Assembly (NCBI GenBank): GCA_945888515.1
Contig: CAMDAD010000010.1
Span: 1-39,607, forward strand
Reading direction: 5' to 3'
Length of the DNA: 39,607 bases
Source of the DNA: Akkermansia muciniphila
GTDB taxonomy: Bacteria; Verrucomicrobiota; Verrucomicrobiia; Verrucomicrobiales; Akkermansiaceae
Every line of letters begins with the position of its first letter. Within the stretch, counting starts at the first letter, position 1. Of this stretch, positions 1 through 4,339 are shown one piece after another. A program made the position numbers and the translations under genes. The notes beneath the pieces are model-generated. The model saw only the letters and a program-made list of their open reading frames with translations. It did not search any database and was not told the DNA's origin.

Positions 1-134
1 AGGCTGGTATGGCATCGGGCCGTTGGCCCTGTCTTCAGCCCCAACGGGGCGGCACATACCAGCCCAGGGCAACGCCCTGGGTCAACGGCCCCCACATCAA
101 TCAGCCCTGAAGGGGCGACACATCTTCCCCGCGC
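1..134 (+). repeat. Structured REP-like repeat, copy 1 (left end cut by window)
   Basis: First of two tandem copies with a 212-bp period. Visible structure: an outer stem GGCTGGTATG (2-11) with CATACCAGCC (55-64), enclosing two small hairpins, GGGCC-GTT-GGCCC and GCCCC-AAC-GGGGC. An 8-bp hairpin CCCAGGGC-AAC-GCCCTGGG follows, then a short GCCC/GGGC hairpin. All of the first three loops are GTT or AAC. Copy 1 differs from copy 2 at only 4 of 134 positions by eye. It ends with GACACATCT, 9 nt before the ATG of a truncated hsdS start. Such repeats produce spurious ORFs rich in GQRP/WGNAPG-like peptides. I read it as a non-autonomous structured repeat; the family name is an inference. Confidence 0.75.
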
Positions 135-194
135 ATGAGCCGTAAAACCAATACCACCGCCACGAAGGAAGAGGCAAAGCCTGCGCTGTTGCCT
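135..194 (+). pseudogene. Truncated duplicate of the hsdS 5' end
   Basis: These 60 bases encode a 20-residue peptide starting MSRKTNTTATKEEAKPALLP, which parallels the first 20 residues of the intact hsdS (MSRKTKTTATKEVATPALMP). After codon 20 the frame runs into the next repeat copy, so no specificity domain follows. By eye 8 of 60 bases differ from the intact hsdS start, against 4 of 134 in the repeat upstream. The two hsdS starts are therefore more diverged than the repeats that precede them. It could be the remains of a second hsdS allele or of an old partial duplication. Confidence 0.7.
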
Positions 195-346
195 GTCCTA
201 GGGCGTTGCCCCAGGCTGGTATGGCATCGGGCCGTTGGCCCTGTCTTCAGCCCCAACGGGGCGGCACATACCAGCCCAGGGCAACGCCCTGGGTCAACGG
301 CGCCCACATCAATCAGCCCTGAAGGGGCGACCCATCTTGCCCACGC
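193..346 (+). repeat. Structured REP-like repeat, copy 2, directly upstream of hsdS
   Basis: Second tandem copy. It begins with an imperfect hairpin CCTAGGGC-GTT-GCCCCAGG that joins the truncated hsdS fragment to the repeat. From 213 it repeats copy 1 almost exactly: outer stem GGCTGGTATG/CATACCAGCC, two GTT/AAC-loop hairpins, and the 8-bp CCCAGGGC/GCCCTGGG hairpin. The right end is GACCCATCT (329-337), followed by 9 nt and then the hsdS ATG at 347. The repeat therefore forms the immediate 5' context, and probably the 5' leader, of hsdS. I could not identify a promoter within it. Confidence 0.75.
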
Positions 347-1633
347 ATGAGCCGCAAAACGAAAACCACCGCCACGAAGGAAGTGGCAACGCCCGCGCTG
401 ATGCCGAAGCTGCGGTTTCCGGAGTTTCGGGATGCGGTGGGGTGGGAGACGACCCCGCTTGGCGAACTCGGTGCAATAGTGACTGGCAAAACTCCAAGCA
501 CGAAAGAAGACGATCTTTGGGGCGGCGAGATGCTTTTCATTACCCCCACGGACATCACAGAGGGGGAGAAATATCAGCACACGACTCAGCGCACAGTCGT
601 TGAGACTCGGGGCACAAAAGTGCTTCCACCGGGTAGCGTCGTTTACACCTGCATTGCCTCTATTGGGAAAATGGCTCTGACCGTTGTTCCAAGTGTTACC
701 AATCAACAGATCAATGCAGTTGTGCCAAACGGCAAGACGGCGAGGGAGTTCATTTATTACTCGCTGGCCAATCTTACGCCTTGGATCAAATCCATCCCGG
801 CGACCTCTACTCTGCCGATCATCAACAAGACTCAGTTTTCGGGGTTCATCATTCCGCACCCCGAAGACAAAGCCGAACAACAAAAAATCGCCGAGTGCCT
901 GAGTTCGGTGGACGAGCTGATGGCCGCGCAAGCGCGGAAAGTGGACGCGCTCAAGACCCATAAAAAAGGGCTGATGCAGCAGCTTTTCCCCCGCGAAGGC
1001 GAAACTCTACCCCGTCTCCGCTTCCCCGAATTCCAAAACGCCGGGGAGTGGGAGATGAAAACCATGGGAAGCATTGCTTCGTTTTCTTCAGGTGGGACGC
1101 CATCCAAAGACAACCCAGAGTATTGGAATGGAACCATTCCGTGGGTCAGTGCCTCGTCGATGTATGATCTAGTGATTCAGAAGGCAGACCATTATGTGAC
1201 GCCCCTTGCAATCGGCAACGGGACACGGATAGCCAAGAAGGGATCAATTCTGATTCTTGTTCGTGGAAGCATGTTGTTCAAACGCGTGCCAATTTGCGTC
1301 GCGGGAATCGATGTGACGTTCAACCAAGATGTGAAGGCTCTGGATGTGGACCCGTCCATCAACACTGGTTTCCTTCTTTATCAGCTTTCAGCTTTCCAAG
1401 CCCGCTTCCCCATCAATGAAACAGGAATTGGTGCTGGGAAGATTGAGCTAGAACATCTCAAAGAGTTTGAACTGTTCATCCCCGATGCACCCGAACAACA
1501 ACGCATCGCCGACTGCCTGAGCAGCCTCGACGCCCTGATCACCGCCGAAACCCAAAAGCACGAAGCCCTCAAGACCCACAAGAAAGGCCTGATGCAGCAG
1601 CTTTTCCCATCCCCGGAGGAGGTGGCGGTATGA
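347..1633 (+). CDS. hsdS: Type I restriction-modification specificity subunit HsdS
   Basis: Directs the methylase, and the nuclease if one is present, to a bipartite DNA target. The 428-residue length is normal for the family. Two target-recognition half-units are visible. Each opens with an LRFPEF motif (about residues 22-27 and 224-229) and ends in a conserved helix. The helices are nearly identical in the two halves, with EQQ.IA.CLSS.D.L followed by ALKTHKKGLMQQLFP (about 177-215 and 382-421). That repeated half-unit design is diagnostic of S subunits. The start at 347 matches the duplicated start at 135 and lies 9 nt after the repeat end. The partner hsdM lies about 1.1 kb downstream, separated by repeats and a transposase gene, an unusual spacing. 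No hsdR is in the window. Confidence 0.95.
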   Translation: MSRKTKTTATKEVATPALMPKLRFPEFRDAVGWETTPLGELGAIVTGKTPSTKEDDLWGGEMLFITPTDITEGEKYQHTTQRTVVETRGTKVLPPGSVVYTCIASIGKMALTVVPSVTNQQINAVVPNGKTAREFIYYSLANLTPWIKSIPATSTLPIINKTQFSGFIIPHPEDKAEQQKIAECLSSVDELMAAQARKVDALKTHKKGLMQQLFPREGETLPRLRFPEFQNAGEWEMKTMGSIASFSSGGTPSKDNPEYWNGTIPWVSASSMYDLVIQKADHYVTPLAIGNGTRIAKKGSILILVRGSMLFKRVPICVAGIDVTFNQDVKALDVDPSINTGFLLYQLSAFQARFPINETGIGAGKIELEHLKEFELFIPDAPEQQRIADCLSSLDALITAETQKHEALKTHKKGLMQQLFPSPEEVAV

Positions 1634-1662
1634 GCGCGGTTCTTTCGCAGAAACCTCGAGGA

Positions 1663-1692
1663 AACCATTTTCGTGGCGTCACGAAAATGGTT
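1663..1692. repeat. Perfect 13-bp inverted repeat just after hsdS
   Basis: AACCATTTTCGTG (1663-1675), a GCGT loop, and CACGAAAATGGTT (1680-1692) form a perfect 13-bp stem 30 bases past the hsdS stop. No T-run follows on either strand, so it is not a standard intrinsic terminator. It may act as an mRNA 3' hairpin for hsdS or be a mobile-element relic. Confidence 0.7.
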
Positions 1693-1743
1693 CCGCAAGT
1701 GATCACGCGGCGAAAACCGGCGGCGGGATTTTATCAGCGTTCC

Positions 1744-1931
1744 AGTAGTCAAGGAATCCTTGACTACTCAAACCGGAGGCGAAGCCGAGTTACCGAGGAT
1801 TCCTCGGCAACTGCGAGGTCAGTAGTGCAGGGCTTGTTCATCCCGCGCAGCCAAGGCAACCGTCAAGGAATCCTTGACAGTTCAAATCGAGCAACGGCGG
1901 AGGGGAACTGCCGAGGAATCCTCGGTAGTTC
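1744..1931. repeat. Cluster of four AGGA(A/T)TCCT-core palindromes
   Basis: There are four short palindromes with a one-base centre. (1) AGTAGTCAAGGA/TCCTTGACTACT, a 12-bp stem at 1744-1768. (2) CCGAGGA/TCCTCGG at 1793-1807. (3) GTCAAGGA/TCCTTGAC at 1862-1878. (4) CCGAGGA/TCCTCGG at 1911-1925, extended by GAACT/AGTTC to 1905-1931. Types alternate (TCAAGGA, CCGAGGA, TCAAGGA, CCGAGGA), so the cluster looks like a duplicated pair. Two copies are followed by similar TTCAAA.CG text. The first palindrome begins with GTAG, the tetranucleotide reported beside REP hairpins bound by RAYT enzymes. That link is suggestive only. Confidence 0.65.
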
Positions 1932-1984
1932 AAACGGGGGAGGAAACGCTGTGCTTGGAGTCCGTGGCATCGGCATCGGCATAG

Positions 1985-2242
1985 GTCGGGCTTTCAGCCC
2001 TCGGAATGCGTCGCGTTCGCGATTCCTGGGGCGATGCCCCAGGCTGGTATGGCTTTGGGCCTTTGGCCCTCCAAACCGACAAGCGCCCCAAAACGCAGAC
2101 GTGCCCGTCTTCCACACCGCGCTCTCGACGTTCGCACCGTGCTCCCGTCTTCCGCGCCAACGGCGCATCTCTATACCAGCCTGGGGCAACGCCCCAGGAT
2201 CACCGCAAGCAACCGCATGAGGGCTGAAGGCCCGACCCATCT
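1985..2242 (+). repeat. Structured REP-like repeat, copy 3, long form upstream of RAYT
   Basis: It is bounded by an outer inverted repeat, GTCGGGCTTTCAGCCCTC near 1985-2002 and GAGGGCTGAAGGCCCGAC near 2219-2236, with one mismatch. Inside are a perfect CCTGGGGC-GAT-GCCCCAGG hairpin (2025-2043), a CTGGTAT/ATACCAG outer stem, a GGGCC-TTT-GGCCC hairpin, a GCGCC-AAC-GGCGC hairpin and a CCTGGGGC-AAC-GCCCCAGG hairpin (2180-2198). Several stems differ in sequence from copies 1 and 2 but keep pairing (GCCCC/GGGGC became GCGCC/GGCGC; CCCAGGGC/GCCCTGGG became CCTGGGGC/GCCCCAGG). That is compensatory change, which supports selection on structure. About 80 extra bases sit between the inner hairpins. The element ends GACCCATCT, 9 nt before the RAYT ATG. 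Confidence 0.7.
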
Positions 2243-2251
2243 CACCGCGCC

Positions 2252-2704
2252 ATGCCACAATCGCTCTCCTATCTCCTGACGCACATCGTCTTTAGCACCA
2301 AAGACCGCGCTCCTGTGCTCGATGCCACTGTGCGCCCCGCGCTGCACGCCTATCTCGCAACGGTCGCCCGCAATGTGGAATGCGAATGTTTCCGTGTGGG
2401 CGGAGTGGCCGACCATGTGCATCTCGCCGTCCGTCTCTCGCGAACGATCACCATGGCCCAGCTCATCGAGGAACTGAAAACATCGTCCTCCAAATGGCTC
2501 AAAACCCAATCACCTGCATTGGCCTCCTTTGCGTGGCAACGCGGCTACGGTGCCTTTTCCGTGGGGCCGTCTGACCTGAATGACCTGCTCCACTACATCG
2601 ACACCCAAGAAGAACATCACAAAACAAGCACCTTCCAAGACGAATACCGCGCCTTTCTCACCAAATACGCCATCGAATACGATGAACGCTATGTCTGGGA
2701 CTGA
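2252..2704 (+). CDS. REP-associated/IS200-like tyrosine (Y1) transposase
   Basis: A 150-residue single-domain HUH transposase. The HUH motif is visible as DHVHL (about 54-58), and the likely catalytic tyrosine is in LLHYIDTQEEHH (Y115). The opening HIVFSTKDR and the closing YDERYVWD are typical of the IS200-like, REP-associated group. These enzymes nick and join single-stranded DNA at hairpin-flanked sites. No second gene (tnpB) and no classical IS ends are present, which fits a domesticated RAYT better than an IS. A structured repeat copy lies immediately upstream, and two more lie before hsdS. The stop is 21 nt before the hsdM start, so the two are probably co-transcribed. It appears intact, with no frameshift. 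Confidence 0.88.
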   Translation: MPQSLSYLLTHIVFSTKDRAPVLDATVRPALHAYLATVARNVECECFRVGGVADHVHLAVRLSRTITMAQLIEELKTSSSKWLKTQSPALASFAWQRGYGAFSVGPSDLNDLLHYIDTQEEHHKTSTFQDEYRAFLTKYAIEYDERYVWD

Positions 2705-2725: not shown

Positions 2726-4339
2726 ATGACCGACACCAACCAAAAACAACTGGGCAACACCCTCTGGAGCATCGCCGACCAACTGCGCGGGGCCATGGAT
2801 GCGGACGACTTCCGCGACTACATGCTTTCGTTTCTCTTCCTGCGCTACCTCTCCGACAACTACGAGACGGCGGCGAAGAAGGAACTGGGCCGTGATTACC
2901 CCGATGTGGGCGATGACGCCCGCAAGGTGCCATTGGCGCTCTGGTATGCGGACAACGAGGACGACATCCCGGAGTTCGAGAAGCAGATGCGCCGCAAGGT
3001 GCATTACGTCATCAAGCCTGTGCACCTCTGGAACAGCATCGCCAACCTGGCGCGCACCCAGAACAGCGATCTCCTGATGACGCTTCAGGAGGGTCTCAAA
3101 TACGTCGAGACCGAGTCCTTCGAAAGCACCTTCAATGGCCTGTTCTCCGAGATCGACCTGAGTTCCCCCAAGCTCGGAAAGAAATATGAAGACCGGAACG
3201 CCAAGCTCTGCACCATCATCCAAAAGATCGCCGAAGGACTGGCGGAGTTCTCCACGGACATCGACGCGCTGGGCGATGCCTATGAATACCTGATCGGCCA
3301 GTTTGCCGCCGGGTCCGGCAAGAAGGCGGGCGAGTTCTACACGCCACAGCAGATTTCCGACATCCTCTCCGCCATCGTCACGCTGGACAGCCAGGAGCCG
3401 AAGACCGGCACCAAGAAGCGTCTGGAAAGCGTGATGGACATGGCCTGCGGCTCCGGCTCCCTGCTGCTCAACGTCCGCAAGAAGGTCAACAAGGCGGGAG
3501 GCACCATCGGCAAGATCTTCGGCCAGGAGAAGAACATCACCACCTACAACCTCGCCCGCATGAACATGCTGCTGCACGGGGTGAAGGACACGGAGTTCGA
3601 CATCTTCCACGGCGACACCCTGCTCAACGAGTGGGACATGATGCGCGAGGCGAACCCGGCCAAGAAGCCCAGCTTTGACGCCATCGTGGCCAATCCGCCA
3701 TTCAGCTACCGCTGGGAACCTACCGATTCTCTGGCCGACGACGTGCGTTTCAAAAGCCACGGTCTCGCTCCGAAATCCGCTGCCGATTTTGCCTTCCTGC
3801 TGCACGGCTTCCATTTTCTGAAAGACGAAGGCGTGATGGCCATCATCCTGCCCCACGGCGTGCTCTTCCGTGGCGGTGCCGAAGAACGCATCCGCACCAA
3901 GCTACTGAAAGACGGCCACGTCGATACCGTCATCGGCCTGCCCGCGAATCTCTTCTACTCCACCGGTATCCCGGTCTGTATCCTCGTGCTCAAAAAGTGC
4001 AAGAAGCCCGACGACGTGCTCTTCATCAACGCCGCCGAGCATTTTGTGAAAGGCAAGCGCCAGAATCAGCTCAGCAAGGAGCACATTCAGGTGATTATCG
4101 ATACCTACCAGCATCGGAAGGAGGCGCCCCGCTACTCCCGCCGGGTGGGCATGGAGGAAATCGAGAAAAATGACTTCAACCTGAACATCTCGCGCTACAT
4201 CAGCACGGCGGTGGGAGAAGAGGAAATCGATTTGGCGGCGACGAACCAAACATTGGTGGACATTGAGAAAACCATCAAGACGGCAACGGCCAAGCACAAT
4301 GAGTTTCTGAAAGAACTGGGGTTGCCTTCCTTGCCGTAG
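2726..4339 (+). CDS. hsdM: Type I restriction-modification methylase subunit HsdM
   Basis: N6-adenine methyltransferase subunit that modifies DNA together with HsdS. Length 537 residues, normal for the family. The N-terminal HsdM_N helical region spans about 1-150 (LGNTLWSIADQLRGAMDADD). The S-adenosylmethionine motif I is DMACGSGSLL (about 238-247) and the catalytic motif IV is NPPFSY (about 324-329), both intact. The conserved GEFYTPQQIS precedes motif I. Third codon positions are dominated by C or G (GAC, ATC, CTC, AAG), more strongly than in the housekeeping genes to the right, a hint of horizontal origin. The RAYT gene ends 21 nt upstream. The stop abuts the remnant of an unrelated peptidase gene. 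With no hsdR in view, it may serve as a solo methylase or pair with a nuclease gene left of the window. Confidence 0.95.
   Translation: MTDTNQKQLGNTLWSIADQLRGAMDADDFRDYMLSFLFLRYLSDNYETAAKKELGRDYPDVGDDARKVPLALWYADNEDDIPEFEKQMRRKVHYVIKPVHLWNSIANLARTQNSDLLMTLQEGLKYVETESFESTFNGLFSEIDLSSPKLGKKYEDRNAKLCTIIQKIAEGLAEFSTDIDALGDAYEYLIGQFAAGSGKKAGEFYTPQQISDILSAIVTLDSQEPKTGTKKRLESVMDMACGSGSLLLNVRKKVNKAGGTIGKIFGQEKNITTYNLARMNMLLHGVKDTEFDIFHGDTLLNEWDMMREANPAKKPSFDAIVANPPFSYRWEPTDSLADDVRFKSHGLAPKSAADFAFLLHGFHFLKDEGVMAIILPHGVLFRGGAEERIRTKLLKDGHVDTVIGLPANLFYSTGIPVCILVLKKCKKPDDVLFINAAEHFVKGKRQNQLSKEHIQVIIDTYQHRKEAPRYSRRVGMEEIEKNDFNLNISRYISTAVGEEEIDLAATNQTLVDIEKTIKTATAKHNEFLKELGLPSLP

Follow-up and report, generated by a model that had tools for sequence, protein, structure and literature searches.

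The repeats that stand in front of the type I specificity gene hsdS and of a nearby RAYT transposase gene in Akkermansia muciniphila are best read, at a probability of roughly two in three, as untagged REP/TIR-like RAYT arms that have lodged at the junctions of a type I restriction-modification (R-M) operon, with the gene edges duplicated. They lie in a window of 39,607 nucleotides (the whole stretch of DNA that was analysed), for which the first-pass annotation had claimed that the right end of the repeat sits exactly 9 nt before an ATG in all three copies. Direct reading confirmed this to the base, as GAC(A/C)CATCT ends 9 nt before the ATGs at 135, 347 and 2252. The observation is correct and its cause is largely ordinary, being a matter of duplication, lineage and a partly shared arm end: the constant nine-base gap is mostly inherited, through one duplication and through a hairpin arm beside the RAYT gene. 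The features concerned are the following (L, G and C numbers denote loci, genomes and contigs).

1..134, + strand: arm-pair element, copy 1, its left end cut off by the contig start, 97% identical to window 213-346; right end GACACATCT at 117-125, next nine bases at 126-134, ATG at 135.
135..193, + strand: duplicated hsdS 5' end (59 nt, not the full gene), sharing 53/59 positions with the 5' end of hsdS in locus L138; window 347-405 likewise matches the L138 sequence.
194..346, + strand: arm-pair element, copy 2, read directly, its left border placed by reading; hairpins 250-254/258-262, 275-282/286-293 and 316-320/324-328 (stems counted across 14 leaders); right end GACCCATCT at 329-337, next nine bases at 338-346, ATG at 347.
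347..1633, + strand: hsdS, type I R-M specificity subunit (PF01420, E 1.9e-48); the start region is the same in homologues.
1630..2220, + strand: open reading frame without a Pfam match (0 families), the end of which is element sequence.
1981..1999, - strand: right end of an inverted arm (GGCTGAAAGCCCGACCTAT), with no ATG at +9.
2035..2070, + strand: left, inverted part of the element upstream of the RAYT gene (92% match to the query).
2144..2251, + strand: arm upstream of the RAYT gene; hairpins 2154-2158/2162-2166, 2180-2187/2191-2198 and 2221-2225/2229-2233 (stems counted across 14 leaders); right end GACCCATCT at 2234-2242, next nine bases at 2243-2251, ATG at 2252.
2252..2704, + strand: RAYT-type Y1 transposase gene (PF01797, E 1.5e-24; NF033573 above cut-off).
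2726..4339, + strand: hsdM, type I R-M methyltransferase subunit (PF02384, PF12161; TIGR00497, E 7.2e-121).

The gene order is thus hsdS (347), RAYT (2252) and then hsdM. The Y1_Tnp domain by which a RAYT is recognized is present in 2252-2704, and the HsdR, HsdM and HsdS of a type I R-M system are all identified, HsdR on contig C23. The frame at 1630..2220 is probably what erosion has left of a gene, possibly DinD, that stood between hsdS and hsdM; L006 holds a longer version, likewise without a Pfam match.

GACMCATCT was found three times in the window against 0.54 expected, and three occurrences were reached in 3 of 100 shuffles. A tandem unit of 212 bp, consisting of the element and 59 nt of hsdS (the start codon and the first ~20 codons), relates window 1-210 to 213-422, with 187/210 positions identical, and the ATG at 135 opens a frame of 71 amino acids whose ~20 first codons are the hsdS 5' copy. 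Because copies 1 and 2 are a single tandem duplication, the window contains two independent spacings, not three; the equality of the three distances stands, but their independence does not. Further units occur in the same genome on contig C23, which ends in them behind hsdR and carries hsdS 5' copies at L001 2931 and 3143; the copy at 2931 lacks an arm right end in front and is a counterexample inside the array. The original hsdS start, an ATG at L001 2683, is still present: it overlaps the hsdR stop and turns into element after about seven codons. Position 1 of the window is a contig break inside a tandem array, and a similar array closes C23. The two contigs, C23 and C10, probably adjoin each other across the array, a join that we infer.

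The usual state of this junction can be seen in the homologous operons. An HsdM scan covered the best 80 of 544 relatives, which by their titles belong to Proteobacteria, Verrucomicrobia and other groups; 54 of these 80 loci allowed both the end of hsdR and the start of hsdS to be located. hsdS starts at or before the hsdR stop in 31 of these 54, typically as ATGAGCAGTAA, which leaves no room for an arm; in the remaining 23 the two genes are separated by 75 to 2755 nt. Given the overlap in 31/54 loci, hsdS of this operon family can do without an arm. Between hsdR and hsdS, the searched arm patterns are present in L121, L156 and L163 (the stretch itself was read in L156 and L163). An arm stands at +9 before hsdS in L121 and L163 and before a copy of the hsdS 5' end in L156 and L257; on reading, L156 has a duplicated hsdS 5' end, and its full hsdS does not follow an arm at +9.

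We propose a sequence of events of which the duplication, the surviving start, the alignable arms and the variable spacings at RAYT and hsdM are the visible parts, whereas the order and the movement by the RAYT would be as follows. The arm before the RAYT gene is one of the two inverted arms that hug the transposase frame in several relatives. The arm before hsdS would sit where the hsdR stop and the hsdS start formerly overlapped; the original hsdS start survives behind hsdR, and the hsdS 5' end would have been duplicated beyond the element, restoring the gene. The unit would then have been tandemly repeated, which would have copied the spacing to the ATGs at 135 and 347.

On the RAYT side, each lineage keeps one distance from arm to ATG (9, 8 or 2 nt), and the lineages differ from one another. 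The right end lies 9 nt before the RAYT ATG in L005, in L117 and in the broken RAYT of L190 (and, by reading, in L006), 8 nt before it in L007 and L008, 2 nt in L009, L189, L194 and L196, and 39 nt in L042. Measured from the hairpin in 18 loci, the distances are 18, 18, 17, 17, 17, 15, 11, 11, 11 and 11 nt in ten of them, with 51, 55 and 148 nt among L296, L297 and L298; no arm hairpin was found upstream of the RAYT gene in the remaining five (L262, L010, L156, L300 and L002), the hairpin of L262 being altered. An inverted arm follows the RAYT stop by 10-15 nt in 8 of the 18 loci (L264, L261, L189, L194, L196, L295, L296 and L298), three of which had been found by the arm pattern. Such a locus has inverted arms on either side of its transposase gene. 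The window RAYT has the upstream arm only, as no inverted arm was found within 400 nt past its stop. Target-site duplication by the RAYT was considered but not adopted as a rule: direct repeats do flank many RAYT genes, but arms and gene edges had been counted together.

Each arm consists of three hairpins followed by GACCCATYY, and alignable three-hairpin arms precede hsdS and the RAYT gene as well as, elsewhere, hsdM and a KilA-N gene of other genomes. With a stem structure drawn from the same sequences on which it was counted, the three stems were paired in 99.6% of 250 cells across 14 leaders, a value that none of 500 shuffles reached, whereas slid versions of the structure paired at 24-60%. 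Compensatory changes point the same way, with 7 of 18 stem pairs altered on both sides (0/500 shuffles as many); the value for further pair types was matched in 34 of 500 shuffles. The hairpin form itself is conserved.

The nine bases between right end and start codon had been described as different, which is true of the window copies, but among more copies some of them resemble variants of one arm end. Part of the stretch appears to be the terminus of the arm, which reads CCCCGCGCC in those copies that are least degraded; in L121, L163, L257 and the hsdS copy of L156 the nine bases are CCCGCGC plus two more. Of 48 arms with the CCCTGAAGGGGC hairpin, 13 have CGCG within the nine bases, compared with 1 of 96 upstream nine-base blocks, indicating that in part of the copies the arm reaches nearly to the start codon. 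The other 35, to which the copy at window 317-346 and the one before KilA-N in L156 belong, lack CGCG, so that this explanation of the nine bases holds for some copies only. Eight of the 13 CGCG arms, all in G472, have no ATG at +9; two of the eight (L225 and L227) have an ATG frame of 115 and 98 amino acids, respectively, at +18, which we read as lying in the inverted partner arm. A candidate gene start at +9 in L001 (2783) was discarded, as its ATG comes from the inverted arm next to it and no gene begins there.

How general the spacing is was assessed on 92 right ends, taken from loci that searches for RAYT, hsdM or the motif had brought up, with duplicates removed by 80 nt and with a bias towards R-M loci; L121, whose motif is GTCCCATTC, lies outside this pattern and was found separately. 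For 66 of the 92, no ATG frame of at least 80 amino acids begins within 60 nt. The first-start distances of the others are 9 (five cases), 2 (four), 12 (three), 8 (two), 18 (two) and ten single values, and an ATG of any kind stands at +9 in 11/92. The five frames at +9 are hsdS (two), RAYT (two) and KilA-N (one). Before hsdM the arm stands at +15 in L163 and +12 in L190, and in L006/L262 it lies 26 nt upstream of ATGACCGACA, which spells the start of hsdM at the end of the contig. The first-pass annotation had proposed to tabulate such distances in related genomes and to regard the spacing as chance if most copies lay, at random distances, far from genes or inside them; by that standard +9 is no rule, although it is the commonest value. 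Its suggestion of insertion at a set distance from start codons, here read as a choice of target, draws on the same five frames, and is rejected as very improbable on this survey, given the 66 right ends without a frame, the distances of 8 or 2 nt at RAYT genes and of 12 and 15 nt at hsdM, the few independent events behind the +9 cases, and the 31 homologous operons that offer no room for an element at hsdS. Even less credit is due to the idea that the right end is a promoter, its motif serving as a -10 box of leaderless genes and thereby fixing the distance to the ATG. An extended -10 motif (TGnTAnnnT) does end 5-8 nt before the start in 13 of 82 RAYT leaders, against 0.19 per eight positions elsewhere, but those 13 belong to distant RAYTs (47-57% identity), and no closer RAYT leader of the set has the motif at that place, on which ground this reading was set aside. 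The 13 (L023, L024, L025, L026, L027, L047, L048, L049, L051, L060, L064, L067 and L069) look leaderless, to judge from their sequences. Plain coincidence between the hsdS and RAYT lineages, both arriving at nine by chance, has a small share of the probability: the window has two independent spacings only, the RAYT lineages vary from 2 to 9, and 35/48 arms lack the shared CGCG end, but the nine-base stretches are in some cases related arm ends, and the two values may not be fully independent.

A further alternative is a structured leader shared by the restriction system and the transposase, in which the arm would be a portable translation-control element for hsdS and RAYT, its hairpins and a short C-rich stretch setting initiation and selection keeping the distance of 9 nt. 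The structural half of this proposal holds up, since the three-hairpin arms are alignable, their stems are conserved through compensatory changes, the arm replaces the usual hsdR-hsdS overlap, and hsdS (L121, L163), its 5' copy (L156, L257) or the KilA-N gene (L156) follows at +9 elsewhere. The translational half fares worse. In 12 folded leaders the start codon showed no common pairing or exposure, the hsdS homologues overlap hsdR in 31/54 loci, other genes stand at 2, 8, 12 or 15 nt, neither the 5' copy at L001 2931 nor the full hsdS of L156 has an arm at +9, and conserved stems are also expected if the transposase reads the hairpin as DNA. The window RAYT leader folds better than its shuffles (z -3.18, 0/200 as good), its left arm pairing with the start-codon region, whereas the fold of the hsdS leader is not special (z -1.43, 15/200 as good). 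An RNA switch that hides the start codon was dropped because the pairing partner is not constant, differing with other borders and in relatives. We consider the leader unlikely overall, although two facts sit uneasily with plain descent: the hsdS-type arms at +9 in four genomes are 69-80% identical to the copy at 347, which could reflect selection instead, and descent from hsdS does not explain the arm at +9 before the KilA-N gene (PF04383) of L156. Somewhat less plausible still is a view of the arms as portable inter-gene modules, each bringing its own start-codon context and a duplicated gene edge, with hairpins that would retune the HsdR:HsdS:HsdM ratio; the edges in question are the hsdS 5' end, the hsdM 3' end and the hsdS 3' end.

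In the genome of the window itself, the right-end pattern without mismatch occurs at 7 places, all in this R-M region, with 11 further places at 1-2 mismatches compared with 4 in a backward control, which is not the high genome-wide copy number of REP sequences; in G472, by comparison, there are 75 places with up to two mismatches and 12 in the backward control. A similar pattern was present in 7 of 145 genomes of a family sample and in 31 of 384 of a class sample. In the family sample, the neighbourhood of type I R-M genes is richer in RAYT genes than chance would give. Among the matches listed, paired by eye, at least 8 of 155 RAYT matches are within 5 kb of an HsdM_N match (0.85 expected), and at least 6 without the own genome (0.81 expected); an hsdM or hsdS match lies in the 1-1.5 kb flank of 7 of 71 RAYT loci, two of them from the own genome. 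A literature search combining TnpA-REP and type I restriction found no paper, one on RAYT with REP elements and restriction-modification a single paper, and the association may be in print elsewhere.

Duplicated gene edges recur at further junctions of this kind. A second type I R-M locus of this genome, at the end of C29 and the start of C7 (G000; L002 2226-4584, L004 130-184), contains a further RAYT together with a YhcG/DUF1016 nuclease gene and a fourfold hsdM 3' end. Compared with the first copy, copies 2-4 are identical at 44-46 of 56-57 positions, and two of the four run straight into the start of the next gene. By reading, the hsdS 3' end recurs after the RAYT in L009 (1-2630), where element sequence seems to encode the C-terminal tail of a fused HsdM-HsdS frame. 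In L117 (5289-5807), a gene with AAA_33 and zeta-toxin matches lies between RAYT and hsdM.

Palindromic partners of RAYT genes have been described in two forms. PMC3733652 distinguishes REPtrons, with GTAG repeats, from TIRtrons, RAYT-like genes flanked by long inverted repeats; there, some TIRs lie at about equal distance from the transposase gene, TIR repeats are found as dimers and clusters too, and GGGGWSAS is a motif common to some TIRs. The main texts of PMC8266576 and PMC6006769 do not contain the words "restriction" and "start codon". Like a TIRtron or TIRYT, the present element has a Y1 transposase gene that in several relatives carries self-complementary, mutually inverted arms close to either end; unlike one, the window lacks an inverted arm after the RAYT stop, its arms read GGGGCGAC or GGCCCGAC (by eye) rather than GGGGWSAS, and they lie at R-M operon junctions. 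With the REPtron and REP-BIME of PMC8266576 and PMC3733652 it shares GC-rich palindromes near the RAYT, some of them in head-to-head pairs (L001 2783(+)/2831(-) and arms in G472). It differs from these descriptions in its arm of ~100 nt with three hairpins, in the confinement of the exact pattern to one region of this genome and in the tag: GTAG and CTAC each occur 0 times in window 1-346, window 1960-2251 and L001 2690-3300, and the hairpin is preceded by TCAG, TGAG or CGAG. In sequence, the window arms appear to be of the RAYT-with-palindromic-arms kind and not GTAG REPs. Their host is, in its hsdR, hsdS and hsdM homologues, one widespread type I R-M operon, which departs from the usual form in that arms break the hsdR/hsdS overlap and the hsdS 5' end is duplicated.

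In summary, the striking regularity of the nine-base spacing is now mostly explained, and the pattern that emerges is one of arms at type I R-M junctions with duplicated edges in several genomes. If the portable-module reading were true, genes and transposases could enter overlapping operons and leave both neighbours intact. Should the arms influence expression, the subunit balance of a restriction system would be set by them; otherwise they show how overlapping operons survive insertions.
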